Shown here: one piece after another, positions 4,083-59,996 of the stretch
How positions within the stretch are numbered: position 1 is the first letter of the stretch
Layout: every line of letters begins with the position of its first letter
Assembly (NCBI GenBank): GCA_944391625.1
Contig: CALXUG010000009.1
Coordinates: 1-64,000 of the forward strand
Source: an uncultured Clostridia bacterium
GTDB taxonomy: Bacteria > Bacillota > Peptococcia > Peptococcales > Peptococcaceae
DNA: 64,000 nucleotides
Reading direction: 5' to 3'
Made by a program: the position numbers and the translations under genes
Notes under the pieces: generated by a model
Databases searched by the model: none
Told to the model about the DNA's origin: nothing
Seen by the model: only the letters and a program-made list of their open reading frames with translations

Positions 4083-4102
4083 TTTATATACGAACATTTT
4101 CA

Positions 4103-4126
4103 TAGGGTAACCCGTTGGTTACCCTA
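4103..4126 (+). terminator. Hairpin between rpsB and tsf (attenuator-like)
   Basis: TAGGGTAACC (4103-4112) and GGTTACCCTA (4117-4126) form a perfect 10-bp stem with a 4-nt loop. No U-tract follows, so it is more likely an RNA-processing or partial attenuation element that tunes the rpsB:tsf ratio than a full terminator. Confidence 0.6.
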
Positions 4127-4153
4127 TACATATATCTGAGGAGGTTTTTCAAA

Positions 4154-36999: not shown

Positions 37000-37788
37000 T
37001 TACACATATAGTACCCCATAAGCCAAGGTACTGTATTTACCGCCGACAATGGCATCAAAGTTTAAATGACGCAGCGTTCCTGCCCGATGTTTTACCACAA
37101 CCCGACGGCGAGCAATCGTTCGCGCCAACTCCAAACTCTCCTGCGTCAACGGACTATAATCGGCCTGACGACGAAGAGGAGCAATACCTGATGATTGCAA
37201 AATAGGCCGCTCAAACATAGGATCAAAATAAACCAGATCATAGCTGTTTTTCTGCTGCTGCGCCAAATATTGACGATAATCTATGCAAAAAGGCTGTATG
37301 CGAGCCATAGCCTCCTGCATACGCCAGCTTTCCGTCGGCCAATTTTGCAGACCATAAGCGGTAATGACATAAGTAAGCGGACTACTTTCTAATGCGGTCA
37401 CGCTGCCGTCTGTTCCGGCTGCAAAAGCAGCCACAATGGCATCATTAGCCATTCCCATGGTGCAATCTAAGATAGCATCGCCACTCTGCACATCCAATAC
37501 CTGAGTCAGTAGTTCTTCCTTGCCATCCTTTAACTGTTTGATGCGCGGCACAGCCATACCGGGATGAAAAAATAATTGTTGACCGTCTGACCAATGGAGA
37601 ACAAGGGTATGTTCCTCCTCCACCAACAGACAATCCAGCTGATGCTGCTCTAAAAGCCAGGGAATCCCTTTATTATTGCGGGCAATCACAGGAATCCGCA
37701 ATTGTTCACAAAGCTGCAATGCCAGAGTAGTCAATCCTTCACCATGTTTTCCCCTTGCTTTGCTGGTAGTTGCTGCACAATTAACCAT
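37000..37788 (-). CDS. Class I SAM-dependent methyltransferase (RsmJ-like)
   Basis: The 262-residue protein has a SAM-binding motif I region (DAILDCTMGMANDAIVAAFAA in the middle, about 115-135) and the catalytic-type FDPMFERP motif, resembling the DPM(F/Y)P of RsmJ 16S rRNA methyltransferases. It begins with a non-catalytic N-terminal domain that binds no obvious cofactor. It overlaps the mutL end by 8 bp, so it is part of the mutS-mutL-miaA operon. RNA methylation is likely; the target base is not certain. Confidence 0.75.
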   Translation of the reverse strand: MVNCAATTSKARGKHGEGLTTLALQLCEQLRIPVIARNNKGIPWLLEQHQLDCLLVEEEHTLVLHWSDGQQLFFHPGMAVPRIKQLKDGKEELLTQVLDVQSGDAILDCTMGMANDAIVAAFAAGTDGSVTALESSPLTYVITAYGLQNWPTESWRMQEAMARIQPFCIDYRQYLAQQQKNSYDLVYFDPMFERPILQSSGIAPLRRQADYSPLTQESLELARTIARRRVVVKHRAGTLRHLNFDAIVGGKYSTLAYGVLYV

Positions 37789-39832
37789 GATAACTGCCTC
37801 GCTTGAAAATTTTATATAGCTCTGTCATTGTGATTTGATAAATGATAGGCCGTCCATGGGGACAAGTATGGGCATTTTCTACCTGAGACAAATCATACAG
37901 CAAGGTACGCATTTCGATTTCTGTCAATGGCCAGTGCGCTTTTACGGCACCTTTGCAGGATGCGGTGATCAACAGTTTTTCTTTGATAACAGCAGCTGTA
38001 ATTTCTTTTTGCTCGCCGAGATCGTGCAGTAAATCTAAAAAGAACGTTTCCACATCAGGCAGCTCATGCAGTCCCAAAGGTAAACTGCGCAGCAAATAAC
38101 AACGCTCACCAAAATTCTCCAAGACAAAACCCAGGTCGCGCAATGTAAAAATATGCTGCATTAAAATGCTGTCCTGTTGTGCTGAAACCGTTATGGTAAC
38201 AGGAATCAGTAATGGTTGAGAAATGATTTCTTTTTGTGCTTCAGCCTTCATGAATTTTTCATACAAAATCCGTTCATGACAGGTGTGCTGGTCGATAATA
38301 TACAGCCCTTCCTCATTTTGTGCTAGGATAAAGGAATTTTGCAACTGACCTATAACAGATAGATTTTTAATTCCTTTCACTTGCACAGTTTCGCTTTTTT
38401 GTACTGGTACAGAATCCAATTTTTTATTCTGTTTCTCTTTTTTGAAATCAGAACCAAATTGATTTTTTTCGTATATATCATCGTTCATGATATTTTCTTC
38501 TTTTTGAAACAATTTATCTTGTATAACAGATGGATGGATATCCTCGGATAATGCAGTTGTTTCTTCTGAAGACCAATGCAACAGTTTTTTTGGTTCAGCT
38601 ACAATATCTCCCAAAGATGCTGAACTGCTCTGTTTTCCATACGAAATAGCAGAGGTTTCTGCTGATTCTTGTATTTTCACTGTATTAGCTGGTTGTATTT
38701 GTGCTTCAGCTGATTTTTTTTCCGCAGTATCCGCAAAATGGGTTTGCTGATGCTGCACAATCTGTGCGACAGAAGGCGCCTTTTTTTGTGTTGCAGCTGG
38801 CGCAACCGATTCAGGCAAGAAAGCATTTTTTGTAATGTTGGCCTCCCATAAAGCATCTTTTAATACTTCAATGATTTTTGGTTTTAACTGTTCAAAGCCA
38901 TTAATTTTAATCTCTGTTTTGGCAGGATGCACATTGACATCCACCTCACTGCCTGGCAAAGTCAATTGTAATACAGCAACAGGAAAACGCCCTTTGGCGA
39001 TCAGTGTATAATAGCTTTCTTCTAATGTCTGGCTAAGTTCGGCACTTTTCACCAAACGGCCATTGACAAAAAACACTTCCTGGCCCCGATTATTTCGCGT
39101 AACTTCTTCCCTCACCAATCGTGCTTCCAACCAACGATCATTGCCTAGTTCTTTTTTTTCTACCGGCACAATCAACGGCTCCAGATTACTCCCATACACA
39201 TAGGCCATACATTGCTCTGTGGTAGTTAATCCTGCTGTATCCAATTGCAACTGACCGTTAGATACATAACGAAATCGCACAGCAGGATGACCCATAGCAT
39301 ATTTACTGATTAAATCGCCAATTAAGCCAGTTTCATAGCTGTTGCTTTTTAAAAATTTTCGACGGGCAGGCACATTATAAAACAAATTTTTAACCTCTAA
39401 AATAGTACCAGGTGTTGTGGCCACTTCTGAAAAATCCTGTACAACGCCGCCGTCAATGCGAATTTTATGTCCAATGGCTTCTTCTGCTGTACAGCTGCGC
39501 ATTTCTACCTGTGCCACAGCAGCGATACTGGGCAATGCTTCTCCGCGAAAGCCGAAGGTGTTTAGCCGATACAAATCTTGAAACTCTGTTATTTTGCTGG
39601 TGGCATGGCGTTGAAAGGCAATCTGTAAATCATCCTTATCCATACCACTCCCGTTATCCTTAACACGGATTAAACTGGTGCCGCCTTCCTTGATTTCAAT
39701 TTCAATAAAATCGGCGCCAGCATCCAGACTGTTTTCCAGTAATTCCTTAATCACCGACAGCGGCCGTTCTATCACTTCACCAGCAGCAATTTTGTCTGCA
39801 ACATGAGCTTCCAGTTGTCTAATTTGTCCCAT
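37781..39832 (-). CDS. mutL: DNA mismatch repair protein MutL with endonuclease motif
   Basis: The 683-residue protein has the GHKL ATPase N-terminus (AAGEVIERPLSVIKELLENS and NGSGM, GFRGEALPSI), a long low-complexity linker (about 335-480) and a C-terminal dimerisation domain. The C-terminus carries DQHTCHERILYE (about 514-525), the DQHx-x2-E-x4-E metal-binding endonuclease motif with Thr for the usual Ala, and CPHGRP near the end. This predicts a nicking MutL, as in bacteria without MutH. It overlaps mutS by 14 bp. Confidence 0.96.
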   Translation of the reverse strand: MGQIRQLEAHVADKIAAGEVIERPLSVIKELLENSLDAGADFIEIEIKEGGTSLIRVKDNGSGMDKDDLQIAFQRHATSKITEFQDLYRLNTFGFRGEALPSIAAVAQVEMRSCTAEEAIGHKIRIDGGVVQDFSEVATTPGTILEVKNLFYNVPARRKFLKSNSYETGLIGDLISKYAMGHPAVRFRYVSNGQLQLDTAGLTTTEQCMAYVYGSNLEPLIVPVEKKELGNDRWLEARLVREEVTRNNRGQEVFFVNGRLVKSAELSQTLEESYYTLIAKGRFPVAVLQLTLPGSEVDVNVHPAKTEIKINGFEQLKPKIIEVLKDALWEANITKNAFLPESVAPAATQKKAPSVAQIVQHQQTHFADTAEKKSAEAQIQPANTVKIQESAETSAISYGKQSSSASLGDIVAEPKKLLHWSSEETTALSEDIHPSVIQDKLFQKEENIMNDDIYEKNQFGSDFKKEKQNKKLDSVPVQKSETVQVKGIKNLSVIGQLQNSFILAQNEEGLYIIDQHTCHERILYEKFMKAEAQKEIISQPLLIPVTITVSAQQDSILMQHIFTLRDLGFVLENFGERCYLLRSLPLGLHELPDVETFFLDLLHDLGEQKEITAAVIKEKLLITASCKGAVKAHWPLTEIEMRTLLYDLSQVENAHTCPHGRPIIYQITMTELYKIFKRGSYHG

Positions 39833-42458
39833 GGTTTACCACCTCCTGTGCTTTTTTCTGTAATGTGAATAAAAGATTCATGGCATCAATTGGTGTCAGC
39901 GTATTCAGATTAATCGCGGCCAACTCCTCTACTACTTCCGGCAAATCTACTGAAGATGTTGAAGTTTGTTCCATATCAACCAATTTGTCCGGCTCTGGGC
40001 AAACAAACAGCTCCATTTGGCTGGAATGGGGGCGATGCTGCTCCTTTTCTAATTCTAAGGTACGCAAAATATCCTGCGCATTTCGCAGCACCATTTCAGG
40101 AATACCGGCCAATCTGGCTACATGAATCCCATAACTGCGGTCAGCTCCGCCAGCGATAATTTTGCGCAAAAAAACAATATTTTCACCATCTTCTTTGACG
40201 GCCACTGAATAATTACAAATACCAGGCTGTTCTTCCAATGCAGTTAATTCATGATAATGGGTGGCAAACATGGTTTTGGCACGAATAGTATTGTTAATGT
40301 AATCGGTTAAAGCCCAGGCAATAGCCAGACCATCATAGGTGCTGGTTCCCCGCCCTACTTCATCTAAAATAATCAAGCTGTCTTTTGTGGCATTATTAAC
40401 GATGTTGGCAACTTCGTTCATTTCCACCATAAAGGTACTTTGCCCTGTACTCAAATCGTCACTGGCACCGATTCGGGCAAATACGCGGTCAACCACCGGC
40501 ATGATGGCTTCTTTCGCTGGTACAAAAGAACCAATCTGCATTAAGATAGAGGCTACTGCAATGCTGCGGCAGTAAGTACTTTTTCCGGCCATATTAGGAC
40601 CAGTGATAATCAAAAACCGTTCGGTTTCCGGATGAAAATGCACATCATTGGGAATGAACCAGCCATCTTTCAATTTTTCTTCCACAACAGGATGACGGCA
40701 CTCTTTCAAACTATACTGACCATCCTCTGAAATAACAGGCTTGCAAAAATTATGATATACAGCAGCTTGTCCCAAGGAAAACAAACAATCCAACTGGGCA
40801 ATGATATGAGCTGTTTTTAAAATACGTGCTACCTGTTCTCCTACCGTATTGCGCAGTTGAACAAAAAGCTGATATTCCAATTCTCTTAACTTTTCATCAG
40901 CCCCCAATACTTTGCTTTCCAGCTCCTTCAACTCCGGTGTGATAAAACGTTCACTATTGGCAAGGGTTTGCTTCCGCACATATTCCTCTGGCACTTCGCC
41001 GCTTTTACTGCGGGTTACATCAATGTAATAACCAAATACTTTATTATAGCTGACCTTTAATGTACGAATACCAGTCCGCTCCCTCTCCCGCAATTCCAAA
41101 TCTACAATCCATTGTTTACCGTTGACTAGAATATCCCGCAGCTGATCTACTTCATGACTATATCCAGAGCGAATCAGATTGCCTTCCCGCACAGAAAAAG
41201 GGGCTTCTGGATGAATTGCCTGCTCCAACAGTTCATATACATCGGTCAATGGATCAAAGGCAGCGGTCAATTGCTGCAGATAGGCTGATTTTCCTTTTTG
41301 CATATTTTGCAGTAACGCAGGCAGCTGAAATAGAGAATTTTTCAGTGACAGCAAATCCTTGGCATTTGCTGTTCCATAGGTAATACGGGAAGTAATACGT
41401 TCTAAATCATAAACCGGTTCCAAATACTCCTTGAAAGAAAGACGCAAGGTTGTATTTTCTACCAGTTCTTCTGTTGTATCCAGCCGTTTTTGGATTTCCT
41501 CTTTGTTTAATAATGGTTTTTCCAACCAGTTTTTCAGTAAACGGCTGCCCACTGCGGTACGGGTATAATCTAAAATACCCAGTACAGAATCTTTTCGTTC
41601 TGCGCTGTGCAGCGAACGCACCAGTTCTAAATTGCGGCGCGTCGCATAATCCAAATCCATAGTTTCTTTCAGCGAATATACTTTTAAAGTCATAATATTA
41701 GCTGGACGACTCTTCTGCATGATAGTCAGATAATCCAGAATCACTCCGGCAGCAATGACAACCAGGGGCTTATCTGCACAACCCAGACTGGTGAGGGAAT
41801 TGATATGGAAATGTTCTAACACTTTTTGCTGGGCATATTCCAGCCGAAAAGCATGCTCCATATGACTGGTGATAGTGACTTTGTTTTCACCGGCAATGCG
41901 GTTTATATCGTACCAAGTTTGCTCATCACCAGAAGCAACCAAACATTCCACAGGATCGTAACGCCAAAACTCATTATGTAAGGTATTCCAATCTGGCACT
42001 TCTGTTGCCATAAATTCACCGGTAGAAGCATCAGCTACAGCCAACCCATATGCCCCTTCTTTATTACGGACAACAGCCAGCAAATAGTTGCTGCTGCGTT
42101 CCTGCAAAAAGTTACCTTCTAAAATTGTCCCCGGCGATATAACACGAATCACTTCCCGCTTGACTATTCCTTTGGTGCTTTTCGGATCTTCAACTTGTTC
42201 GCAGATTGCAACCTTCTTCCCGGCAGCAATTACTTTGGCAATATAGTTGTCCGCCGAATGGAAAGGAACACCGCACATTGGTATTTTTCCTAATCCACCA
42301 TCCCGGGCAGTTAAAGTGATGCCCAATAAGCGGCTGCCCATCTCAGCATCAGGGCCAAACATTTCATAAAAATCTCCCAGTCGATAAAATAGAAGGCAAT
42401 CCTGATAGTCTTTTTTTATTTGTTCGTATTGTTGCATCATTGGTGTATTTCCCAGCAT
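39819..42458 (-). CDS. mutS: DNA mismatch repair protein MutS
   Basis: The 879-residue protein has the mismatch-binding N-terminus (MMQQYEQIKKDYQDCLLFYRLGDFYEMF in part), with the Phe-x-Glu wedge in GDFYEMF, and the ABC-type ATPase with GPNMAGKST, DEVGRGTSTYDG and THYHEL. The dimer-forming C-terminal helices end the protein. AGGAGG precedes the ATG at 42458. A terminator-like structured element lies just upstream, so mutS probably has its own promoter or is attenuated. Confidence 0.97.
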   Translation of the reverse strand: MLGNTPMMQQYEQIKKDYQDCLLFYRLGDFYEMFGPDAEMGSRLLGITLTARDGGLGKIPMCGVPFHSADNYIAKVIAAGKKVAICEQVEDPKSTKGIVKREVIRVISPGTILEGNFLQERSSNYLLAVVRNKEGAYGLAVADASTGEFMATEVPDWNTLHNEFWRYDPVECLVASGDEQTWYDINRIAGENKVTITSHMEHAFRLEYAQQKVLEHFHINSLTSLGCADKPLVVIAAGVILDYLTIMQKSRPANIMTLKVYSLKETMDLDYATRRNLELVRSLHSAERKDSVLGILDYTRTAVGSRLLKNWLEKPLLNKEEIQKRLDTTEELVENTTLRLSFKEYLEPVYDLERITSRITYGTANAKDLLSLKNSLFQLPALLQNMQKGKSAYLQQLTAAFDPLTDVYELLEQAIHPEAPFSVREGNLIRSGYSHEVDQLRDILVNGKQWIVDLELRERERTGIRTLKVSYNKVFGYYIDVTRSKSGEVPEEYVRKQTLANSERFITPELKELESKVLGADEKLRELEYQLFVQLRNTVGEQVARILKTAHIIAQLDCLFSLGQAAVYHNFCKPVISEDGQYSLKECRHPVVEEKLKDGWFIPNDVHFHPETERFLIITGPNMAGKSTYCRSIAVASILMQIGSFVPAKEAIMPVVDRVFARIGASDDLSTGQSTFMVEMNEVANIVNNATKDSLIILDEVGRGTSTYDGLAIAWALTDYINNTIRAKTMFATHYHELTALEEQPGICNYSVAVKEDGENIVFLRKIIAGGADRSYGIHVARLAGIPEMVLRNAQDILRTLELEKEQHRPHSSQMELFVCPEPDKLVDMEQTSTSSVDLPEVVEELAAINLNTLTPIDAMNLLFTLQKKAQEVVNHGTN

Positions 42459-43554: not shown

Positions 43555-45918
43555 TTATTTTTTCAATTCAACAACTGTGACACCATCGCCGCCTTCATTA
43601 AAAGCACCAAACCGATATTGGGCTACATGACGGTGATGGCGCAACTGATCCCGTACAGCACTGCGCAAGGCGCCTGTCCCCTTGCCATGAATAATCCGCA
43701 CTTGCGCCAGACTGCTCAAATAAGCATCGTCCAGATATTTATCCACTTTGTCCAAAGCTTCCTCTACCATAAGCCCCCGCAAATCCAATTCGCTTTTAAT
43801 GTTTTCCGTTTTACTGGAAGAAATTTTATGCACCATGGTTTTTCCGCTTTCTTTAGCTTTCGCTGATTGCTGTAACTCTTCGATGTTGACAGTCACCTTC
43901 ATAATCCCAATCTGTAACTGTAAGTTTCCGTTTTTATCCGGCAAAGTCAATACAGTACCATGCTGAGTAAATTTAGGCACATATACGTCCTCTCCAATTT
44001 TTACCTTTTTTACTTTATTGGTAAGAACCTTTGGTCCTTTATTTACTTTGGCGGCCAACTTATCTTCTTTTTCACTTAATTTTTTTCGTTTTTCCTGCGC
44101 TTCCGCCTGCGCTCTGGCATTATCTAAATGCATTTGCCGCAGTTCCTGCAAAATATCTTCACTTTCCTGCCGCGCTTGACGAATAATTTCCAAAGCTTCC
44201 TCTTCTGCTTTTCGCCGAATTTTTTCAGCAGATGCCTCTACCTTTGCCCTTTCTTCTTCCAATGCATTCAATTTGGTTTGAATTTCCTGCAGGCTTGCCT
44301 CTGCCTCTTCCTGTTTCCGCTGCGCCAATACATTACTGGTTTCCAAAGAAGCAATCAGACCTGCTACATCCTGTTCTTCCTGAGAAATCAAACTGCGGGC
44401 ATGTTCAATAATATGATTGTAAATTCCCAGTTTCCGCGCAATTTCAAAGGCATTGCTCTTTCCGGGCACACCTACCAGCAAACGATAGGTAGGCCGCAAT
44501 GTTTCCACATCAAATTCAACACTGGCATTCTGCACTCGCGGCTCATTAAACGCATACGCTTTCAGTTCACTATAATGGGTAGTTGCTATAATCTTTCCGC
44601 CGCGATGCAAAATGTCATCCAAAATAGAAATAGCCAAAGCAGCGCCTTCTGACGGATCGGTCCCTGCGCCTAATTCATCCAAAAGCACCAACGAACGTTC
44701 ATCAATGTGTTCCAAAATCTGTACGATGTTGGTCATATGAGAAGAAAAGGTACTCAAAGACTGCTCAATACTCTGTTCATCACCAATATCAGCAAATACA
44801 CCATGAAACAATCCCATCTCAGTACCTGGTTCGGCCGGAATATGCAGTCCAGACTGCGTCATTAAAACAAATAAGCCTACTGTTTTTAACGTAACTGTTT
44901 TCCCACCTGTATTCGGACCTGTAATAATAACCGAATCAAAATCCTGCCCCAAAGCAATGGTTAGCGGTACAACTTGTTTGGCAGCAATTAACGGATGACG
45001 GCCTTTTATAATCGATAGCTGCGGTGTTTGTTTTAAAACAGGTTCTATCCCGTTCATTTTTTCACTGAGACGAGCCTTGGCAAAAATGAAATCAATCTGG
45101 CCAAGTACCTGCAAGTTATATTGTAAATCATCTGTATATGGTGTTACCTTGCTGCTGAGCTCCAATAAAATACGATTTACTTCATCACGTTCTGTACTGT
45201 AAGCTTTACGCAAATCATTGTTCATTTCTACTACAGCCATAGGTTCGATAAACAGGGTAGCACCGCTGGCCGACTGATCATGAACAATACCTGGAATCTG
45301 GCTGCGGTATTCCTGTTTGACGGGAACCACATACCGATCATTGCGCATAGTAACCAAAGCGTCCTGTAAATATTTCTGGCTGGTTTCAGAACGAACAATA
45401 TGTTCTAAGCGCTCCCGAATGCGATTCTTTAAGGTGTTGATTTTACGGCGCACAGCCAGCAGCTCGCTGGAAGCGCTGTCACGCACCGCAGCTTCCGGCG
45501 CTATAACATCATCAATTTCCCGTTCCAATTCGGGCAATAAGGTAATTTGTCCTGCCCACCATTCCAAACGTGGGATTTCATAAGTTCTCTTTCGTTCCAA
45601 AAAAAAGTGCGAAATACGACGGCAGGCAATCAATACATCCAACAACTGTAAAAATTCCTCGGGCTCCAACATACCGCCAATTTGTGTTTTGCGAATCTGG
45701 CGATTCAAATCGACCAGACCGCCCAGAGGAATATTGGGCTCCATGCGTCGCACCAAAACACCTTCAGTTGTTTCCTGCTGCCAATATGCAATCTGCTGTC
45801 CATCAGTGATAGGCTGTAACTCCTCGGCCAACAATTTTCCCAAACCGGAACTGCATTGGGCAGCTAATAATTCTATTATTTTTTCATATTCAAGTTTTTT
45901 AAATGTAAAAGGATTCAT
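43555..45918 (-). CDS. mutS2: Endonuclease MutS2
   Basis: MutS2 (also linked to collided-ribosome rescue in Bacillus) lacks the mismatch-binding domain of MutS. The 787-residue protein has the core ATPase with GPNTGGKTVTLKT, DELGAGTDPSEGAA and TTHYSELKAYA, a long coiled coil (about 515-620) rich in Glu/Lys/Ala, and a C-terminal Smr nuclease domain with LDLRG (about 707) and HGKGTGALR (about 745). Its ATG overlaps the stop of the U32 gene by 4 bp. Confidence 0.96.
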   Translation of the reverse strand: MNPFTFKKLEYEKIIELLAAQCSSGLGKLLAEELQPITDGQQIAYWQQETTEGVLVRRMEPNIPLGGLVDLNRQIRKTQIGGMLEPEEFLQLLDVLIACRRISHFFLERKRTYEIPRLEWWAGQITLLPELEREIDDVIAPEAAVRDSASSELLAVRRKINTLKNRIRERLEHIVRSETSQKYLQDALVTMRNDRYVVPVKQEYRSQIPGIVHDQSASGATLFIEPMAVVEMNNDLRKAYSTERDEVNRILLELSSKVTPYTDDLQYNLQVLGQIDFIFAKARLSEKMNGIEPVLKQTPQLSIIKGRHPLIAAKQVVPLTIALGQDFDSVIITGPNTGGKTVTLKTVGLFVLMTQSGLHIPAEPGTEMGLFHGVFADIGDEQSIEQSLSTFSSHMTNIVQILEHIDERSLVLLDELGAGTDPSEGAALAISILDDILHRGGKIIATTHYSELKAYAFNEPRVQNASVEFDVETLRPTYRLLVGVPGKSNAFEIARKLGIYNHIIEHARSLISQEEQDVAGLIASLETSNVLAQRKQEEAEASLQEIQTKLNALEEERAKVEASAEKIRRKAEEEALEIIRQARQESEDILQELRQMHLDNARAQAEAQEKRKKLSEKEDKLAAKVNKGPKVLTNKVKKVKIGEDVYVPKFTQHGTVLTLPDKNGNLQLQIGIMKVTVNIEELQQSAKAKESGKTMVHKISSSKTENIKSELDLRGLMVEEALDKVDKYLDDAYLSSLAQVRIIHGKGTGALRSAVRDQLRHHRHVAQYRFGAFNEGGDGVTVVELKK

Positions 45919-48443
45919 AAAACACCTCTGAAATAATGTCCATAGGTTGAGCCTTCCAAGGCCAGCTGATCCAACTGCTGTAATCCGGTCAAGTCAGAAA
46001 TCAGACTGCCCGTCCGGTTATACTCTACAATTGCTTTTTTATAGATACCTGTCACAATGGCAATCCACTGCGCGGATTGTTCCCTTCCCTCAATGCGCAG
46101 CACATCTACTCCTGTTTTCAGGCATTCTTCCAATCGTTTATATAAATTTAGTGTTTTGCTGTTAAATACATGCATACGACAATTTTGATCCATGTGCAAA
46201 GGAAATTGTACGCCAGTACGATCCTGCAAATAATATTGCTGCTTCATACAGGGCATACTACATTTTTTTTGCGCTGTACGTCCACCAAGAACAGAACCAA
46301 CCACACATTGCTCCGATATCATCAGGGGCAAATTGCCATGCATAATAATTTCCAAGGGCAGATTGCCCAGATAAGAGAACTCCTCTATCTGCTCCAGACT
46401 CAGTTCCGGTGACAACACTGCACGACTAATCTGTTGTTCTGATAGATATTGTAAGGTGATGTCATTTAAAATATTGAGCTGATAATCAGCCACAATGGTA
46501 ACCCATCCCATTTTTTGTGCCATATGCAATAACCCCAGATTGCCAACTACAACTCCATCAAAACCAACTTGTTGAGCAGTATTCATACAGGTTGTTGCTG
46601 TCTTCTGCTGTTGTTCATTCTGTATTGGGCTGCAGGTCCAATACACTTGTGCGCCTTTTTGATGACAATACTGTACAAGCTGGTCATATTCTGCTGTTCG
46701 TGTCAGCGATTGACGACGCAACGGTGTACTCTGAAAATATATCAAATCTGCACCTTGATCTGCCGCAGCCATAGCCGCTTCTATCGTTCCCACTGTAACT
46801 GCCAGCTTTTGCTGCAATCCGTAAGACACTACCTGCGGCGGGATGCGATCCAGCAAGTCACCAGCATCTTCCAGATACTCCTCATAACTGCACAAAGGCA
46901 TTGCAGCGGCTTTCTCATCCTGCAGCTGCTGTTCTAACTGCTCCACAACCGTACGACGCAGCTGATTCAATTCACTAGCCGGAGCAATGATCCCTTCATC
47001 TATTTCACAGATCACATCGCCCAAGCAAAACTGTGTATTGCCTAAACGCTCTAACTGCCGACGCACGCTATCCGCATCACTAGGACGAGTTTTTGCAGCT
47101 TCTACGAAATAAGTACTTTCTCCATATTGCTGATGACCAGCATCATCCCAGGCCAATAACGAAATAGGCAGGCCCTGATGTAATTCTATTTTAAAATGCA
47201 ATCTGTTTTTTTGTACCTGAGAAGGATGGCTGTAGCTTTCTGCCGCCTGCTTTAACAAAAACGTATCTGCTGTACGATATAATTCTTTACTGCCAACCGC
47301 ATCACCGCTAACGGTCATTTGCACAATTTGTCCTGTATTCGCCGTCTGTATTGCCTTTCCTTTTATTGATAAGGCTTGTACTTTTCCGGCAATTTCCTTC
47401 CCATACTGGTTATAGAGCAAATAACCATCACCAACAGACAATGGGGATTTCAGCTGAATCCAGATTTTTTTATGCTCGGTTTTTAAAATATCTGCAACAA
47501 AAACGCCTCGATTATCCGGACGACTATAACTCATCAGATCAGCGCCTGGATTACCAAAATAGTATCCTGTTGTAAAATCCCGGTTAAAAATCTGCAGCAA
47601 TTGTTGCTGTGCCAGTCTGCAATCAAATTTCTGGTGGGCATAATAAGCATCTATCGCTTGTCGATAATGTCGAATAACCGTTGCCACATATTCCGGACGT
47701 TTCATTCTACCTTCTACTTTTAAAGATGTAACACCCGAAGCAAGTAATTCAGGCAAATGTTCCAGCATATTTAAATCCCGTGTACTGAGTAGATAATTGC
47801 CATCTTTTGCTTTATATTCATTGCCTGCATCATCTAACAACTGATACTTCATACGACATGGTTGGGCACACAACCCACGATTTCCACTGCGGCCACCAAT
47901 CATACTGCTGAGCAGGCATTGCCCTGAATAAGAAACACACAACGCACCATGGACAAAAACTTCCAATTCCACATCATTGTTTACCTTGATTTGACGAATA
48001 GTTTCCAGAGAAGTCTCTCTTGCCAACACCACCCGTTCAAATCCCTGTTGCTGCAAAAATTGCACACCTGCAGCATTATGCACCGCCATCTGTGTGCTGG
48101 CATGCAACGGCAACTGCGGTAATGTTTCCCGCAATAAATGAGCAGCTCCCAAATCCTGTATTATGACAGCATCCACCTGCAATTCCGCTAATTGATATGC
48201 ATATGTGATAAAATCTCCGATTTCTTCATTGCGCAGTAACGTATTGACAGCTACATGCACCTTACAGCCCCGCTGATGGGCGTAAGCAATACCCTCAGCC
48301 ATTTGCTCTGGTGAAAAATTTTCGGCTTTCTGACGGGCACTAAACTGAGCTCCACCTATATATACTGCATCGGCACCATTTTCAACTGCGGCTTTCAGAG
48401 CTTCCAGACTTCCTGCTGGTGCTAACAATTCTACTTTTTTCAT
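45915..48443 (-). CDS. U32 family protein (RlhA/YhbU-like, two-domain form)
   Basis: U32 proteins include the RlhA enzyme that hydroxylates 23S rRNA C2501, TrhP-type tRNA hydroxylases and ubiquinone hydroxylases. The 842-residue protein starts ELLAPAGSLEALKAAVENGA and has the U32 signature EVFVHGALCVSYSGQCLLS with GLCAQPC shortly after; these Cys probably bind an iron-sulfur cluster. A DUF3656-like middle part and a second TIM-barrel-like region (about 545-840) with CxxxC motifs follow. RNA hydroxylation is the most likely role. Confidence 0.85.
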   Translation of the reverse strand: MKKVELLAPAGSLEALKAAVENGADAVYIGGAQFSARQKAENFSPEQMAEGIAYAHQRGCKVHVAVNTLLRNEEIGDFITYAYQLAELQVDAVIIQDLGAAHLLRETLPQLPLHASTQMAVHNAAGVQFLQQQGFERVVLARETSLETIRQIKVNNDVELEVFVHGALCVSYSGQCLLSSMIGGRSGNRGLCAQPCRMKYQLLDDAGNEYKAKDGNYLLSTRDLNMLEHLPELLASGVTSLKVEGRMKRPEYVATVIRHYRQAIDAYYAHQKFDCRLAQQQLLQIFNRDFTTGYYFGNPGADLMSYSRPDNRGVFVADILKTEHKKIWIQLKSPLSVGDGYLLYNQYGKEIAGKVQALSIKGKAIQTANTGQIVQMTVSGDAVGSKELYRTADTFLLKQAAESYSHPSQVQKNRLHFKIELHQGLPISLLAWDDAGHQQYGESTYFVEAAKTRPSDADSVRRQLERLGNTQFCLGDVICEIDEGIIAPASELNQLRRTVVEQLEQQLQDEKAAAMPLCSYEEYLEDAGDLLDRIPPQVVSYGLQQKLAVTVGTIEAAMAAADQGADLIYFQSTPLRRQSLTRTAEYDQLVQYCHQKGAQVYWTCSPIQNEQQQKTATTCMNTAQQVGFDGVVVGNLGLLHMAQKMGWVTIVADYQLNILNDITLQYLSEQQISRAVLSPELSLEQIEEFSYLGNLPLEIIMHGNLPLMISEQCVVGSVLGGRTAQKKCSMPCMKQQYYLQDRTGVQFPLHMDQNCRMHVFNSKTLNLYKRLEECLKTGVDVLRIEGREQSAQWIAIVTGIYKKAIVEYNRTGSLISDLTGLQQLDQLALEGSTYGHYFRGVL

Positions 48444-50564: not shown

Positions 50565-53500
50565 TCAGAACAATTGCAGCTGGTCTGATTCTGGCAATTC
50601 ATCCAATACACCATGATTTTGCAATGTCTCAATAATCGCTTTACCAACCTTTCCCCGATTGGACAAATCCTCTATGGACGTAAACGACGCTTTATTTCTT
50701 GCCTCCACGATAGAGCATGCTACCGATTGCCCCAGCCCCTGTAGCGCAACAAAAGGCGGGATCAAACGATTACCCACTACACGAAAATTCTCAGCATCAG
50801 ACTCTGTCAAACTAACCCGTTCACAACTGTATCCCCGTTGATACATTTCTAATGCCAATTCTAAAATAATCTGAAATTTTTTATCTTTATCAGTGGCATC
50901 ATTTCCCATTGCCCTGATATTGTCCATTTGTTTTTCAATCTCTGCAAGTCCCTTAGAAATAATAGCAGCATCAAAATCGTCAGTACGCACTGTAAAAGAA
51001 GCCGCATAAAATGCCAATGGATAATAAATTTTAAACCAAGCAATTCGAAATGCCATCATCACATAAGCAACGGCATGAGCCTTAGGAAACAGATATTTCA
51101 CTTTTTTACAGGAGGTAATATACCATTCAGGTACCTGCATCTCCCGCATATATGATTCATCTTCCGGTTTTAACCCCTTTCCTTTTCGAACCCCTTCCAT
51201 AATTTTAAAAGCACGACCTGCCTCTAATTTTTTATGAATTAAATAAATCATGATGTCATCACGACAACCGATACACTCAGAAGCTGTGGCTGTACCGCTC
51301 AAAATAAGATCTTGCGCATTATTCAACCATACGTCAGTACCATGAGAAAAGCCACTGATTCGCACCAAATCAGAAAATGTTTTCGGTTTTACGTCCATCA
51401 ACATTTGCCGCACAAATTTCGTACCAAACTCAGGAATACCATAAGTCCCAACTTCTGACTCAATCTGTTCCGATGTCACACCTAACGCCTCTGTACTGGA
51501 AAATAAGGACAGTGTTTTTTTCTCGTCCATTGGTATGGTTAATGGATCATAACCAGTAATATCCTGCAGCATACGAATGATGGTAGGATTATCGTGACCT
51601 AGAATATCTAATTTTACCAGTCTGTCGTGAATTTGCTCATAAGTAAAGTGCGTTGTAACTGTTCCTTTGGTTGGATCATCGGCTGGAATCTGCAGTGGTG
51701 TAAAATCGTGTACATCAATTCCTTTGGGGATTACCATCAGACCACCTGGATGCTGCCCTGTGGTACGACGCACACCAGTAAATCCTAAAGCCAAACGTTC
51801 AACATCAGCCTGTTTCCGTTTCAGATTTCGTTCATTCAAATAGTTTACCACATAGCCTTGGGCAGTTTTTTCCGCAAATGTTTGAAAGGTGCCAGCACGG
51901 AATACATTGTCCTTTCCAAATAATTCCTCTGTATAAGCGTGGGCTCTTGGCTGATATACCCCAGAAAAATTCAAATCAATATCCGGTACTTTATCCCCTT
52001 TAAACCCCAAAAAAGTTTCAAAAGGAATATCATGGCCGTCTTTTATCATAGGAGTTTGACAATGCGGACAAATGGCATCGGGCATGTCCGCACCATCACT
52101 ATATTTTCCGTCATCTTTAAAATCTGTAAAATAACAATTTGGGCAACGGTAATGAGGCGGCAACGAATTTACTTCTGTAATACCCGTCATATTAGCCACA
52201 AAAGAAGATCCTACCGAGCCTCGAGAACCTACCAAATAGCCATCGTCATTTGATTTTTTCACAAGTTTATGGGCAATCAAATACAGCACAGAAAATCCAT
52301 TGCCAATAATAGAATTTAACTCCTTTGTAATTCGTTCTTGCACCATATCTGGTAAAGTTGGACCATATAACTGATGTGCTTTGGTATAGGTCAGCGTTCT
52401 GATTTCATCTTCTGCCCCTTCAATTTCTGGTGAATGAAGACCATCAGGCACTGGTTTTAATTCCTCGAAATCCGCAATGATTTTTTTTGGATTTGTAATG
52501 ACAATTTCTTTTGCAACCTCCAACGGAAAATAATCAAATTCTGCCAACATTTCTTCTGTATTGCGATAATAAAGTGGGGGTTGATAATCGGCATCTTCAA
52601 ATTTTTTACCTGCCATTAAAATTGCCCGATAAATATTATCATCTTTATTGGCAAAATGCACATCGCCAGTAGCCACCACTAATTTTCCTAATTCTTTCCC
52701 CAAAGCATAAATATCTAAATTAATTTGTTTTAATTGTTCTTCTGATTCAAAGGTACCCTTGCGCAGCATAAACTCATTGTTTCCATGGGGCTGTACTTCT
52801 AAAAAATCATAAAAAGCTGCTGTGTTCACCAGCGCTTCATGATCTTTATTGGTTTTGATATACGTTTGTATCAATTCTCCGGCCTCACAAGCACTACCGA
52901 TTACTAAATTTTCCCGCACAGCAGCCAATAGCCGTTTGGGAATACGCGGACGACGGTAGAAAAAATTCAGATTGGATTCTGTTACCAATTGATATAATGC
53001 TTTTAACCCTGCTTTATTTTTTGCTAGAATAATACAATGATAGGTTTTTTGCTCTTCCTTAGGCAAGTCATCATCAAAAATATACCCTTCCAGACCATAG
53101 ATAATCTTCACACCTGCGGCCTGTCCAGCATGATATGCCTCTGGAAAAGACTGCACCACACCGTGATCTGTAATGGCAATTGCTTCATGTCCCATATCAG
53201 CAGCCAGCTGAATCAGGTCACTCACATCGCATAAAGCGTCATTGGCACTCATATTGGTATGAAGATGCAATTCAACCCGTTTATCTAACGCTGCGTCTGT
53301 TCGTTTTTTCAACTTTGTTAAATTCAAATCATATGCCATTAAAGTCAATTCACGGGCAAAAGTATCCATACGAATGCTGCCTTTTACCTTTAAACTTTTT
53401 ACTTTTTTTAATTTACCTTTTAATTCTTTAATTTCGTCACTCTCTTTAATGACTTTACATAAAATAGAATCCTTCTCATCAGTAATTTTGAAAGAAAGTA

Positions 53501-54221
53501 AGTGCTTACCTTTGCGTAATTCCCGCACATCTAGCCCAAAAATACGGCCTTCTACCGTAACAAATTTTTCTTCATCTTCAAAACTGGAAATTGGCCGCGG
53601 CGTATCCTTTATCAGTTTTCCCAATAATATAGTATCATCTGCTACTTTTACTTCACTATTTGACGATAAAACAGTTCCTGTTGGCGGCTTAACATAAACA
53701 GGCGTTTCTTTCTTTTTCAGCTCCGGCAATTCAATTTCTTTATCCCACTGTACCTCTACCTGCAGCTTTTCTTGCAATATTTCATCCAATAAAATACTGG
53801 ACTGCAGAGTAAAACGCATGCTATGTAAAAAGCGGACCCCAACTTCCTGACCAATAAAAATTGTCAAAACCTCATCTTTATATTGCCAATGACTATTATA
53901 AAGCCATCCAGCGATAGTGGGATGCTGCTGTTGGAGTATGGTAATCCATAAGTCATAGTGCTGTTCTAAAAATTCCTCTATAGAAATAACCTGCAAAGGC
54001 TGAACAACCAACCGCAACCCGTTGGCCTGTGTCATATTTTGTGTAAAGAATTGCAGGCATTGCAGGTAAAGGGACGCGTTCGGTAAATCAGAGCAGGCAA
54101 GAAAAATCTCACAGACTTTTGTTTGCTGTGAGATTGTGATTTTACGGACACTGGCCTTTTCCAAAAAAGCAAGCACATCCTGATTCGGTTTTTGTTGAAA
54201 ACATTGACAATCCAGTTCCAT
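50565..54221 (-). CDS. polC: DNA polymerase III PolC-type, lacking the exonuclease domain
   Basis: This is the replicative polymerase of low-GC Gram-positives. Seen in order: N-terminal domain (1-210), OB fold (about 218-300), PHP domain (from 316, VELHLHTNMSANDAL, AITDHG), zinc site CPNC...CPHC (693-721), palm with PDIDLNFSG (746-754), fingers and helix-hairpin-helix end. The DEDD exonuclease normally inserted in the PHP domain is absent: GLEGYIFDDD (376-385) runs within a few residues into KTYHCIILAKN (392-402). The length of 1218 versus about 1440 residues fits loss of about 200. AGGAGGG precedes the ATG. Confidence 0.95.
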   Translation of the reverse strand: MELDCQCFQQKPNQDVLAFLEKASVRKITISQQTKVCEIFLACSDLPNASLYLQCLQFFTQNMTQANGLRLVVQPLQVISIEEFLEQHYDLWITILQQQHPTIAGWLYNSHWQYKDEVLTIFIGQEVGVRFLHSMRFTLQSSILLDEILQEKLQVEVQWDKEIELPELKKKETPVYVKPPTGTVLSSNSEVKVADDTILLGKLIKDTPRPISSFEDEEKFVTVEGRIFGLDVRELRKGKHLLSFKITDEKDSILCKVIKESDEIKELKGKLKKVKSLKVKGSIRMDTFARELTLMAYDLNLTKLKKRTDAALDKRVELHLHTNMSANDALCDVSDLIQLAADMGHEAIAITDHGVVQSFPEAYHAGQAAGVKIIYGLEGYIFDDDLPKEEQKTYHCIILAKNKAGLKALYQLVTESNLNFFYRRPRIPKRLLAAVRENLVIGSACEAGELIQTYIKTNKDHEALVNTAAFYDFLEVQPHGNNEFMLRKGTFESEEQLKQINLDIYALGKELGKLVVATGDVHFANKDDNIYRAILMAGKKFEDADYQPPLYYRNTEEMLAEFDYFPLEVAKEIVITNPKKIIADFEELKPVPDGLHSPEIEGAEDEIRTLTYTKAHQLYGPTLPDMVQERITKELNSIIGNGFSVLYLIAHKLVKKSNDDGYLVGSRGSVGSSFVANMTGITEVNSLPPHYRCPNCYFTDFKDDGKYSDGADMPDAICPHCQTPMIKDGHDIPFETFLGFKGDKVPDIDLNFSGVYQPRAHAYTEELFGKDNVFRAGTFQTFAEKTAQGYVVNYLNERNLKRKQADVERLALGFTGVRRTTGQHPGGLMVIPKGIDVHDFTPLQIPADDPTKGTVTTHFTYEQIHDRLVKLDILGHDNPTIIRMLQDITGYDPLTIPMDEKKTLSLFSSTEALGVTSEQIESEVGTYGIPEFGTKFVRQMLMDVKPKTFSDLVRISGFSHGTDVWLNNAQDLILSGTATASECIGCRDDIMIYLIHKKLEAGRAFKIMEGVRKGKGLKPEDESYMREMQVPEWYITSCKKVKYLFPKAHAVAYVMMAFRIAWFKIYYPLAFYAASFTVRTDDFDAAIISKGLAEIEKQMDNIRAMGNDATDKDKKFQIILELALEMYQRGYSCERVSLTESDAENFRVVGNRLIPPFVALQGLGQSVACSIVEARNKASFTSIEDLSNRGKVGKAIIETLQNHGVLDELPESDQLQLF

Positions 54222-54858: not shown

Positions 54859-56574
54859 TTAGGAGAAAATATAAGACACTACCTTTTCCACAACATCAGA
54901 AAGATTTACTACCTCATTTTCTGCAGCTGTTCTCAATTTGTACTCTACCACTTGTTCTTCTATTGCTTTTTTCCCAACTGTAATCCGCACTGGATAACCA
55001 ATCAAATCAGCATCTTTAAATTTAACTCCTGGCCGTTCATTACGATCATCCAACATCACTTCAATACCACGTTTCTGCAAATCATCATAAAGCTGCTCTG
55101 CAATTGCCATCTGCGCTTCATCTTTGGCAGAGATTGGCACTACAACAACATGATATGGGGCAATCGTTTTTGGCCAAATCATACCATTGTCATCATGGTT
55201 CTGCTCTATGGCTGCAGCCATAGTACGGCTGACACCCACACCATAACAACCCATATGAATAACTTGTTCCTTACCATTTTCATCCAGATAGGTTGCACCC
55301 AATGCTTCACTGTATTTGGTACCCAATTTGAAAATCTGACCAACTTCAATACCACGAGCAGACTGACAAATTTGCCCGCATTTTGGGCAAGCTTCTCCTT
55401 CTTTCAGCATACGTAAATCATAGTAGCCAGTTACCTGAAAATCGCGTCCAGGATTCACATTAACGAAATGATACGCTTCTTCGTTTGCACCGCAGACCAA
55501 ATTCACCATTTGTTCCACTGCCAGATCAGCATAAATTTTAACATTTTTCAAACCTACAGGGCCCAGGGAACCAAACGTACAACCAATCAATTTTTCTACA
55601 TCTGCTTCTTCTGCCATTTCCAAAGAAAGACATGGATGAACACGCTGTACTTTTACATCATTTACTTCATGGTCGCCGCGAGCCAATACACAAATAATTT
55701 CATCGTCAGCCTGGAAAAACAGCGTTTTAATACATTTTTCTGCTGACACCTGTAAAAATGCACCTACTGCTTCAATTGTTTTGGAATCGGGGGTATAAAC
55801 CTTCTCCATTGCCAAAGCAGATTCTGTACCATCATTAACTGCTGGTGCAGGACAGGGGGCAATTTCAATATTCGCAGCATAACCGCAATGTTCACAATAT
55901 ACAACTGTATTTTCTCCAGTTTCAGCAAGCGCTGTAAATTCATGCGTCTGGCTGTCACCAATAGCACCGCCATCTGCTTCAATCGGACGGAAATTCAATC
56001 CACAGCGATTAAAAATGTTAGTATATGCTTGATACATATCCCAGTAAGCCTGATCCAAACCAGCAGGATCTCTGTCAAAGGAATACATATCTTTCATTAC
56101 AAATTCACGACCGCGAATCAGACCAAAACGTGGACGTTTTTCATCACGATATTTATTTTGAATCTGGTATAACCGCAGCGGTAACTGACGATAAGAGCTT
56201 ACCTCATTACGAACCAAATCAGTAATCATTTCTTCATGGGTTGGCCCTAAACAAAACTGACGGTCATGACGGTCAGTTACTTTAAACATTTCTGCGCCAT
56301 ACGCATGCCAACGACCTGTTTCTAACCATAATTCTGCTGGTTGAACAATCGGCATTAACAATTCCTGACAACCAGCTGCATCCATTTCTTCTCGAACAAT
56401 ATTTTCGATCTTCTGCAGCACTCGTTTCCCTAACGGCAGATAATGATATAAACCCGCCGCACTTTTCCGGATAAAACCGGCTCTCACCAACAGCTGATGG
56501 CTGACAATATCTGCTTCTGATGGATTATCACGTAATGTAGGTACTAAAGCTTTGCTCATTTTCATAATATTCAT
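54859..56574 (-). CDS. proS: Prolyl-tRNA synthetase (bacterial type with editing domain)
   Basis: The 571-residue class II synthetase has motif 2 ([20 protein letters not shown]), motif 3 ([14 protein letters not shown]) and the INS editing domain between them (about 225-380), which clears mischarged Ala-tRNA. The start at 56574 ([14 protein letters not shown]) is uncertain: GAGGAG is very close to it, and the ATG at 56565 would also fit. It lies in the usual ispG-proS-polC order with mgtC inserted after it. Confidence 0.96.
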
Positions 56575-56646
56575 TCTCTCCTCAAATGGTTTCTAAAATT
56601 TTTATTTCTTTGTCATCGAGTTCTTTAACAAAAACTACTCTTTATC

Positions 56647-57708
56647 TTACATTTGCACTAACAACTTGTCCAGTTCTTCTTGAAAAGCCTCTAAAAGTTG
56701 ATGTTCTGGAACTTTTTTAATGATTTCACCTTTTCGGAAAATCAAACCTTCGCCTTTACCGCCAGCAATTCCCAAATCAGCTTCTCTGGCTTCTCCAGGG
56801 CCATTTACAACACATCCCATAACCGCCAATTTCAACGGCTTATCTATCCCACTGACTATCTGGTCAACTTGATTAACCAATTGCTCCAGCTGAATCTGAG
56901 TACGGCCGCAAGTTGGGCAGGAAATTAATTCCACACCTTTTGGATGTAAATCTAACGAACGCAAAATTTGTTTCGCCACTGGAATTTCCTGCAGCGGATT
57001 TCCAGTTAATGATACCCGTATGGTATCACCAATCCCTTCTGCCAACAATGTACCGATTCCTACAGCAGATTTAACTGTACCATACTTAGCATTACCAGCC
57101 TCAGTAACACCTAAATGCAACGGATAAGGCACTTTTTGCGCTATCAACCGATAAGCGGCAATCATTAAGGGTACATCAGAGGCTTTTAATGAAATTTTTA
57201 TCTGTTCAAACTTTAACGCTTCTAGCATATGCACATGACGCATAGCACTTTCCACCAGAGCTTCTGCAGTGGGGTGCCCATATCGTTCCAGCAAATCTTT
57301 TTCTAAAGAACCGGCATTTACACCAATACGAATAGGAACCCCAAGCATTTTTGCTTTACTGACAACTTCCTGTACTTTGGATTGACTGCCAATATTTCCA
57401 GGATTAATCCGCAATGCGGAAATCCCATAATCCATAGCCAACAAAGCCAACCTATGATTGAAATGAATGTCAGCAATGACTGGGATCGGACTTTCAGCAC
57501 AAATGGTTTTTAATGCCGATGCCGCTTCTTCGTCAGGCACAGCCACCCGCACCAACTGGCAGCCAGCTGCTGCCAGTTGGTTAATTTGCTTCAATGTTGC
57601 TGCAGAATTACGGGTATCCGTATTAGTCATGGACTGGATACTAATCGGATATGAAGATCCAACTCCAACCGTTCCAATCTCAAAATTAGTTGTTTCTCTT
57701 CTTTCCAA
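56647..57708 (-). CDS. ispG: 4-hydroxy-3-methylbut-2-enyl-diphosphate synthase
   Basis: IspG converts MEcPP to HMBPP, the penultimate step of the MEP isoprenoid pathway, using a 4Fe-4S cluster. The 353-residue protein shows SMTNTDTRN, NPGNIG and cluster ligands Cys264, Cys267 and Cys299 (CPTCGRT, GCVVNGPGEA). The start is a TTG at 57708 with AAGGTG 8 bp upstream; I see no better in-frame ATG. It stands beside dxr and uppS, so three isoprenoid genes share the operon. Confidence 0.95.
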   Translation of the reverse strand: MERRETTNFEIGTVGVGSSYPISIQSMTNTDTRNSAATLKQINQLAAAGCQLVRVAVPDEEAASALKTICAESPIPVIADIHFNHRLALLAMDYGISALRINPGNIGSQSKVQEVVSKAKMLGVPIRIGVNAGSLEKDLLERYGHPTAEALVESAMRHVHMLEALKFEQIKISLKASDVPLMIAAYRLIAQKVPYPLHLGVTEAGNAKYGTVKSAVGIGTLLAEGIGDTIRVSLTGNPLQEIPVAKQILRSLDLHPKGVELISCPTCGRTQIQLEQLVNQVDQIVSGIDKPLKLAVMGCVVNGPGEAREADLGIAGGKGEGLIFRKGEIIKKVPEHQLLEAFQEELDKLLVQM

Positions 57709-57725
57709 GTTATATGCACCTTCTT

Positions 57726-58814
57726 TTACGACGTAAACAAACGAACGATATCCTTATACGTAACAACGATAATTAATAACATCATCAAAGAAAAACCAAT
57801 GAAATTTACATAGCCTTCTTTCATTGGATCAATTGCTTTTCCACGAATGGCTTCAATCAGAAGAAACAACAATTTACTGCCATCCAGAGACGGAATTGGC
57901 AACAAATTAATAACAGCCAAGTTAATGGATAATAATGCTGCCAAATTAAAGACATATACCCAACCGGCTTTTGTGGACTGATCAATAATCTGTACAATCC
58001 CTACAGGACCGGTTAATCCTTCTTCTTCATCCATAATATTAATCTTACCGGTAAATAAATCCCCCAGTACATCCACCATGGCCACCGTCATCTGCCAGGT
58101 AGCATTACAACCCAATTGCAGCCCTTTTATTGGTCCAACTGCCTGTCGTTCTGCTGTCTGTGCATAAATACCCAGAAGACTGCGGCTACCATCTTCACTT
58201 AAAACAGGCTGTATAGAAACTGAAATTTGCTGCCCCTGCCGTTCTGCTGTTACAGTAAGTGTTTCTGAAATAGAAGCATCAATAATTAACTTATTTAACT
58301 CATCCCATGTAGCTACCTGTTGTCCATCAATAGACAAAATTTTATCTCCAGGCTGTAACCCGGCCTCCATAGCGGGTCCGTCCTCTGCCACAGCATAAAT
58401 TGTAGTATCTGGATTTTCAATAGGAACTGCTACGCCTAAAATCAAAAACATAACAGAAAAAATAACAATTGCAGTTATGACGTTCATAACCGATCCCGCT
58501 GCTGCAAAAATCATACGCTGCCAAACAGGACGATTTTGATATCGGCGTTCCTCAGGTACACTCACCTGTTCAATCCCTTTGCGCTCTTCTTCCTGAATAT
58601 CCTCACCCAATACGCGAACGTATCCGCCTAAAGGAAGCAGGCGCAAAGAATAACGAGTTTCCCCCCACCGTTTGCTAAACAGTAACGGACCCATGCCAAT
58701 ACTAAATTCCTCTACATACATATGAGATAATTTCGCAGTGATAAAATGCCCAAATTCATGAACCGTTACCAACAATGCAAAAATTAAAATCGCGACAATC
58801 ACTGTTAACATCAT
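57726..58814 (-). CDS. rseP: Site-2 protease RseP/RasP
   Basis: This intramembrane zinc metalloprotease cleaves anti-sigma factors and signal-peptide remnants. The 362-residue protein has HEFGH (residues 19-23) in the first helix, a PDZ domain (about 125-200, AGLQPGDKILSIDG) and the third zinc ligand in NLLPIPSLDGSKL (about 305-317). Four membrane helices are visible. It is a plausible processor of the zf-HC2 anti-sigma factor at 21.8 kb, but that link is speculative. It lies between dxr and ispG. Confidence 0.95.
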   Translation of the reverse strand: MMLTVIVAILIFALLVTVHEFGHFITAKLSHMYVEEFSIGMGPLLFSKRWGETRYSLRLLPLGGYVRVLGEDIQEEERKGIEQVSVPEERRYQNRPVWQRMIFAAAGSVMNVITAIVIFSVMFLILGVAVPIENPDTTIYAVAEDGPAMEAGLQPGDKILSIDGQQVATWDELNKLIIDASISETLTVTAERQGQQISVSIQPVLSEDGSRSLLGIYAQTAERQAVGPIKGLQLGCNATWQMTVAMVDVLGDLFTGKINIMDEEEGLTGPVGIVQIIDQSTKAGWVYVFNLAALLSINLAVINLLPIPSLDGSKLLFLLIEAIRGKAIDPMKEGYVNFIGFSLMMLLIIVVTYKDIVRLFTS

Positions 58815-58841
58815 GGATACTCCCTTTTATATAGAATTTTA

Positions 58842-59996
58842 TCACTGATGCTGCTGTACATACTGCCAGGCCTGTTGTCTTGCCCATTGATCCAACTCTA
58901 TCAAATGGGCGAAACTTTCAATTTCTATTGGATTATGGCAGCCCACAACCTGAGCGACCAAAGCAGGTATATCCATAAATCCAATTTTATCCTGTAAAAA
59001 AGCAGCAACTGCAACCTCATTGGCACCATTTAAAATAGCAGGTGCCGATTTCCCGGTGCGACCCACATCATAAGCCAAAGCCAGTGCCGGAAATTTCTCA
59101 TAATCCGGTGCAAAAAATTCCAGCCCTGCCAATTGAGTGAAGTCTAATTTTGGGAAAGGATTCCCCTGCCGCTGCGGCCAAGTCAGCGCATACTGAATTG
59201 GGATACGCATATCAGCTTTACCTAGGTGCGCCAGTACAGTTCCATCCCCATATTCCACCATGGAATGCACAACACTCTGCGGATGCACCAGAACCTGAAT
59301 GTGATCATAATCCACTTGAAACAACCAGTTAGCCTCTATCACTTCCAATCCTTTATTCATCAAAGTTGCAGAATCAATGGTAATCTTTTGTCCCATAGAC
59401 CAATTGGGATGTTTCAAAGCTTGTTCTTTTGTAACCTGAGACAATTGTTCTTTATTCCAGGTACGAAACGGACCGCCGGAAGCAGTCAGCAAGATTTTAT
59501 GCAGGCAAGAACTATTTGGCTCTATACACTGGAAGATAGCAGAATGCTCGCTGTCCACCGGTAAAATTTGCGCACCGCTTTTCTGCTGCGCCCGACGTAC
59601 CAAACTACCGCCGGACACCAATGTTTCTTTATTAGCCAAAGCCAGATCAATTCCCAGTTCTAACGCTTTCAAAGTAGGTTCTATGCCAGCTGCACCACTC
59701 ATGGCGCCAACCATCATATCTACAGGAAACTGTTCCAACGCCTGCAATACCCCACTCATCCCGCAAAGAACCACTAGCTGTTTATCTGCATTTTCCTGCT
59801 TAAATTTCTCATAAGCAGAAGGCTCTGTGATAATCACACAAGAAGGATGATATTGACATGCTTGCCGTAAAAGCAACTGCCAGTTACTGTGCCCCGCCAG
59901 AATAACTACTTGAAATTGCCCCGGAAATGCATCCACCACCTGCAAAGTTTGTGTTCCAATTGAGCCGGTAGCACCTAAAATCGCCAATCGTTTCAC
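58842..59996 (-). CDS. dxr: 1-deoxy-D-xylulose 5-phosphate reductoisomerase
   Basis: Dxr makes MEP from DXP with NADPH, the committed MEP-pathway step and the fosmidomycin target. The 384-residue protein has the NADPH motif GATGSIGTQTL (8-18), ANKETLVSGG, PVDSEHSAIFQC and SATLMNKGLEVIEA. The start is a GTG at 59996 with GAGGTG upstream. It is 18 bp from the cdsA stop in the operon. Confidence 0.96.
   Translation of the reverse strand: MKRLAILGATGSIGTQTLQVVDAFPGQFQVVILAGHSNWQLLLRQACQYHPSCVIITEPSAYEKFKQENADKQLVVLCGMSGVLQALEQFPVDMMVGAMSGAAGIEPTLKALELGIDLALANKETLVSGGSLVRRAQQKSGAQILPVDSEHSAIFQCIEPNSSCLHKILLTASGGPFRTWNKEQLSQVTKEQALKHPNWSMGQKITIDSATLMNKGLEVIEANWLFQVDYDHIQVLVHPQSVVHSMVEYGDGTVLAHLGKADMRIPIQYALTWPQRQGNPFPKLDFTQLAGLEFFAPDYEKFPALALAYDVGRTGKSAPAILNGANEVAVAAFLQDKIGFMDIPALVAQVVGCHNPIEIESFAHLIELDQWARQQAWQYVQQHQ

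Follow-up and report, generated by a model that had tools for sequence, protein, structure and literature searches.

PolC-type DNA polymerases III typically, though not universally, carry a DEDDh proofreading exonuclease (hereafter Exo) inserted in their PHP domain. PolCs devoid of Exo have been described by Timinskas and co-workers (NAR 2013/14, PMC3919608); they account for 6% of PolCs and for 16% in systems combining PolC with DnaE1. They occur "exclusively in Clostridia and Negativicutes" except for one additional copy in Thermotogae and, in these two classes, always alongside DnaE1. The PHP metal site of PolC was described there as strongly conserved, and it was asked whether PHP proofreads. 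An engineered PolC without its N-terminal and Exo domains, crystallized as the construct 3f2b, is a fast polymerase with a kpol of 330 per s (PMC3656037). The PHP domain of M. tuberculosis DnaE1 is an active proofreader (PMC5636811), and a polymerase survey of 2026 recognizes an active PHP by HHDHEH[C/H]DH and reports many proofreaders in clostridial systems with PolC and DnaE1 (PMC12926913). Here we examine the polC gene, encoding one of the two principal replication polymerases, of an uncultured Clostridia bacterium (Peptococcaceae) from the gut, located in a window of 64,000 nucleotides, that is, the whole stretch analysed, from contig CALXUG010000009.1.

This gene encodes an otherwise normal replicative PolC from which the typical DEDDh exonuclease has been lost, the remainder of the protein being intact. 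The open reading frame starts with ATG and contains no internal stop, and its translation is matched over the full length by the models NF001688 of NCBIfam (1535 bits, cut-off 873) and TIGR01405 (1389 bits, cut-off 1043). Pfam recognizes the NII, OB, PHP (residues 317-459), Pol3, finger and HhH (HHH, 1135-1211) domains, and RNase_T (PF00929) has no match anywhere in the product even at E<=1. Both polymerase aspartate motifs, PDIDLNF and KLDILGHD, are kept, as is the clamp motif QLQLF at the C-terminus. Alignment of 46, then 130 PolCs shows that residues 376-385 and 392-402 adjoin, and that six exo-bearing relatives hold about 195 extra residues, carrying a DxETTG motif (DLETTG), exactly between these two segments. 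An AlphaFold model of residues 209-1218 (mean predicted local distance difference test score 90.1) superimposes on G. kaustophilus PolC 3f2b with a template-modelling (TM) score of 0.93-0.95 and a root-mean-square deviation of 2.7 Å; the natural exo-less PolC is the same construct as the engineered protein. With Exo missing, the other domains kept and DnaE1 present in the genome, the window PolC has all the attributes of the exo-less variant.

The initial annotation had already read the gene as a PolC without its exonuclease, with an intact frame and normal polymerase motifs, from two peptides that indeed lie at the positions claimed and flank the exonuclease site of exo-bearing relatives. This view is borne out, also by alignment and structural modelling, the checks that it had proposed, and by the lack of an exonuclease elsewhere in the product, a finding that it had named as refuting. 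On the other hand, the novelty that it implied does not hold, since the window polC is a fresh instance of a kind known since 2014 (PMC3919608), and its hint at Negativicutes found no support, the nearest named relatives being metagenome-assembled genomes (MAGs) of Peptococcaceae.

The exo-less state is common to the genus and to nearly all sampled relatives up to the class. Separate assemblies of same-genus relatives encode the same architecture, with 77-84% identity. A phylum sample of 139 genomes, mostly drafts, was scored for the insertion from frame lengths, with alignment in addition in almost every case. PolC was found in 106 of them and no PolC match of any kind in 33; the 106 comprise 39 that carry the insertion, including one decayed copy, 63 that do not and four cut by contig ends, so that 63 of the 102 readable PolCs are devoid of Exo. 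The alignment of 130 PolCs contains 92 exo-less and 38 exo-bearing proteins. As a side observation, one PolC (L089 of G107) carries about 70 low-complexity residues rich in Ala, Pro and Glu at the Exo site, perhaps a remnant or a linker expansion.

To follow the history of the domain, a PolC tree was built without the insert columns, using quick searches and SH-aLRT (Shimodaira-Hasegawa approximate likelihood-ratio test) support. The Exo trait changes at least 10 times on this tree, six changes being forced by well-supported branches. If Exo had a single origin, an assumption that rests on the same insertion site and a homologous domain, the Dollo count gives 12 losses, or nine and six after collapsing branches with support under 80 and 95, respectively. 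The counts alone are also compatible with Exo gain, but the case of family f29 fixes the direction as loss. Two genera of this family (L117, L134) have an intact Exo. In a third PolC, L131 (G167, 395-4705), the insert is in frame and near the usual length, whereas other residues stand at the catalytic D, E, D and D positions and in place of the HHRA histidine motif, and RNase_T gives no Pfam match even at E 10. This insert is only 28-35% identical to the Exo of its sisters, compared with 64-66% for the core, when normal pairs show 42-61% for Exo and 58-72% for the core. The PolC of a congener, L130 (G139, 907-4653), with a core 91% identical to that of L131, has only a short linker-like remnant at the Exo site. 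The PHP site of L131 is perfect. In f29, the active site thus decays before the domain is deleted, with PHP remaining perfect, and the loss is caught in progress. Exo has been lost several separate times.

The family to which the window belongs includes two genera in which the whole gene differs. The uppS-cdsA-dxr-rseP-ispG-proS operon includes polC in both the window and G010, whereas in G009 and G012 it is intact minus polC (proS operons L165 and L166). The PolCs of G012 (L159) and G009 (L160) are exo-bearing, group elsewhere in the tree and are encoded among unrelated genes. Apparently, the replicative polymerase was replaced in these organisms by a distant homologue (xenologous replacement), restoring the exonuclease. 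Regain of Exo by insertion was rejected for both, the whole gene being foreign and located elsewhere.

The metal site of PHP, which would be a second and older nuclease centre, is the part that could take over proofreading. The window PolC has all nine ligands (H319, H321, D328, H353, E378, H395, C445, D520 and H522; pattern HHDHEHCDH), and this pattern is perfect in 91/91 readable exo-less PolCs of the 130-PolC alignment. Deviant sites occur only among exo-bearing proteins (4/38; Fisher p = 0.007), always as an Asp to Asn change at the eighth ligand; these four PolCs (L090, L118, L123 and L128), from two neighbouring families, all keep a full exonuclease. In alignment A1, with 40 exo-less rows, about 40 of the 230 PHP columns show no variation, and the nine ligands all fall within this set (hypergeometric p = 6e-8). 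The same HHDHEHCDH is found in the DnaE1 of the own genome and in every other DnaE locus read. G. kaustophilus PolC has Asn at the ligand matching D520; with one ligand mutated, this enzyme has no PHP exonuclease activity (PMC5636811). M. tuberculosis DnaE1, the active proofreader, has the same nine ligands (PMC5636811). The ligand pattern is the one that would be expected if Exo could be dropped only where PHP works.

We consider it probable that a redundant DEDDh exonuclease was repeatedly lost and that the PHP sites of PolC and of DnaE1 have since been responsible for proofreading. The domain would be redundant in a PolC and DnaE1 system because each of the two polymerases already has a PHP domain whose trinuclear metal site is complete, and its loss may be tolerated for this reason. 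PolC would synthesize on the clamp via its QLQLF tail; by analogy with M. tuberculosis DnaE1, a mismatch would stall the polymerase and the primer end could shift to the PHP metal centre and be trimmed there. DnaE1 could trim likewise at its own PHP site, and MutS/MutL would remove the remaining mismatches afterwards. Exo would be needed in Bacilli, whose PolCs often have a broken PHP site and whose DnaE3 is without a proofreader. Excision by the PolC PHP, the split of labour with DnaE1 and fidelity in vivo belong to this proposal. For the wider picture, the chances seem evenly balanced: PHP domains may be the sole proofreaders of chromosomal replication in many clostridial lineages, with Exo repeatedly lost by decay then deletion, some genomes ending without any DEDDh exonuclease of the RNase_T family, and Exo sometimes regained when the whole polC was replaced by a distant exo-bearing gene.

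Timinskas and co-workers put forward an alternative in 2014, in which DnaE1, with its intact PHP, performs bulk synthesis, the part played by PolC is minor or specialized and PolC proofreading is dispensable. Indeed, the own genome encodes a DnaE1 of 1196 residues (NF005298, 1690 bits) with a perfect PHP, the 33 genomes without PolC indicate that DnaE1 alone can suffice, and exo losses are found almost only in organisms with PolC and DnaE1 (PMC3919608). However, PolC is strongly conserved, with a mean column identity of 66% in the exo-less set, and has retained both the clamp motif and a position within a core operon. Furthermore, G009 and G012 swapped polC for another PolC instead of dropping it. 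None of this settles which strand, or how much of the DNA, is copied by PolC. We regard this alternative as unlikely. Fusion of an exonuclease to DnaE1, as in some Bacteroidetes, was rejected, since no RNase_T domain is present in the own DnaE1; long DnaE frames in G001 and G002 result from upstream read-through only (1227 and 1215 residues at best). Separately, in G052, a genome without PolC, the DnaE frame L061 reaches 1701 residues and its PHP begins near residue 500, which could reflect a long N-terminal extension or upstream read-through.

The missing domain could also be supplied in trans by a stand-alone DEDDh (DnaQ/epsilon-like) protein. Two RNase_T proteins are present in the own genome, a DinG-type exonuclease-helicase (921 residues) and a KapD-like exonuclease (221 residues), while neither PF13482 nor the Pol I type 3'-5' exonuclease (PF01612) was found there. 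Moreover, a conserved putative epsilon-binding surface is reported for clostridial DnaE1 (PMC3919608). On the other hand, the same-genus genome G005 (99% complete) has the DinG-type frame alone, the KapD-like protein being missing. Stand-alone RNase_T proteins, defined as frames under 700 residues and classed by length only, occur in 21/36 exo-bearing and 37/73 exo-less genomes, the latter including G167 with its decayed exonuclease (Fisher p = 0.54, 109 genomes), so that a link between exo loss and gain of a stand-alone DnaQ was rejected. Among the 73 genomes without a working PolC exonuclease, 19 have no RNase_T match of any kind; for five of these 19, TIGR00573 as an additional model likewise gave no match at E 0.1, and four (G059, G063, G136 and G163) are single-contig assemblies. 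Because of this lack of enrichment and of these 19 genomes, a replacement epsilon/DnaQ subunit is not the general answer; it could act in individual lineages, and for the window PolC we hold it to be quite improbable. The initial annotation had named a DnaQ-like subunit or PHP as possible substitutes and proposed a genome search for DnaQ or DnaE: PHP emerges as the better candidate and DnaE1 was indeed found, whereas a separate DnaQ as a general solution is not upheld.

It is very improbable that these organisms replicate without proofreading by their polymerases and depend on mismatch repair alone, as natural mutators or error-tolerant cells. The presence of mutS and mutL in the window and the absence of a Pol I type exonuclease among the proteins of the own genome would fit, but a permanent mutator state across whole classes would be surprising, and the PHP site is invariant, whereas a non-functional one should have decayed, as it has in DnaE3 and in E. 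coli. An assembly or binning artefact with a deletion of about 600 bp, a concern of the initial annotation made conceivable by the draft genome of 74 contigs, has a negligible chance, since separately assembled genomes of the genus and single-contig genomes have the same junction, all with an intact frame.

Several points weigh against repeated loss of a redundant Exo compensated by PHP. Exo-bearing PolCs of Clostridia mostly have an intact PHP too, and PHP integrity alone was rejected as a marker of the exo-less state. The association between broken PHP and kept Exo is suggestive only, because the four deviants form one clade and the sample contains very few independent events. The ligands could be conserved for metal-dependent folding; in M. 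tuberculosis DnaE1, mutations of the metal site also reduce stability (PMC5636811). The absence of RNase_T hinges on the sensitivity of one or two profiles and on MAG completeness, a reservation mitigated by the four single-contig genomes. Finally, the excision activity attributed to the PolC PHP is a putative one, by analogy with DnaE1.

The features of the window are collected below. As the initial annotation had stated, mutS, mutL and mutS2 are all present, mutL and mutS lying about 8 kb downstream of polC. As an observation apart, an 842-residue U32-family protein (45915-48443, minus strand) adjoins mutS2; its first half is TrhP-like and its second half U32-like, with UbiU/UbiV matches.

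Table. Location of polC, its domains and neighbouring genes within the window
Feature	Coordinates	Strand	Basis or remark
polC, 1218 residues, PolC-type DNA polymerase III alpha without DEDDh exonuclease domain	50565..54221	-	profile searches and AlphaFold model
OB-fold domain, approximately residues 221-299, preceding PHP, an order common to all PolCs	53325..53561	-	Pfam
PHP domain, nine metal ligands complete	52656..53267	-	alignment; ligands invariant in exo-less set
Junction, residues 374-392 (IYGLEGYIFDDDLPKEEQK), exonuclease site in exo-bearing PolC	53046..53102	-	alignment of 46, then 130 PolCs
Polymerase core (palm/thumb/fingers), helix-hairpin-helix, C-terminal clamp-binding motif QLQLF	50568..52406	-	Pfam, sequence
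proS-ispG-rseP-dxr, upstream of polC, conserved operon normally holding polC; present without polC in G009, G012	54859..59996	-	
mutL	37781-39832	-	mismatch repair
mutS	39819-42458	-	mismatch repair
mutS2	43555-45918		

PolC is a drug target, and a natural exo-less form bears on inhibitor data for gut anaerobes. The exo-less PolCs of the four single-contig genomes without RNase_T are of particular use, as the confounding DEDDh enzyme is removed there when asking whether the PolC PHP proofreads. Compared with canonical PolCs (B. subtilis, S. aureus 9qpc, G. kaustophilus 3f2b), the window PolC has the same polymerase core, OB-PHP-Pol3-HhH order and clamp motif but is devoid of the DEDDh exonuclease, and its D520 is Asn in G. 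kaustophilus. With M. tuberculosis DnaE1 (PMC5636811) it shares the nine PHP ligands and a polymerase chain without a DEDDh domain, whereas the latter is of DnaE type, with a C-terminal OB and a 29-residue loop by the PHP site; PHP activity, demonstrated in M. tuberculosis DnaE1, would be predicted for the window PolC. The closest likeness is to the exo-less PolCs of Timinskas and co-workers (PMC3919608), with the same N-terminal domain, OB, uninterrupted PHP, Pol3 and HhH, an intact PHP metal site and DnaE1 alongside. The proportions differ, 6% of PolCs there (16% with DnaE1) against 63/102 readable ones in the phylum sample, and separate losses, a decayed intermediate and replacement by an exo-bearing gene are not traced in the portions of that text considered. 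According to the 2026 survey, PHP, and never the DnaQ domain, is the part inactivated in replicative alpha subunits (PMC12926913). L131 is the opposite case, with a decayed DEDDh domain and an intact PHP, and this intermediate reverses the published generalization of PHP-only inactivation.
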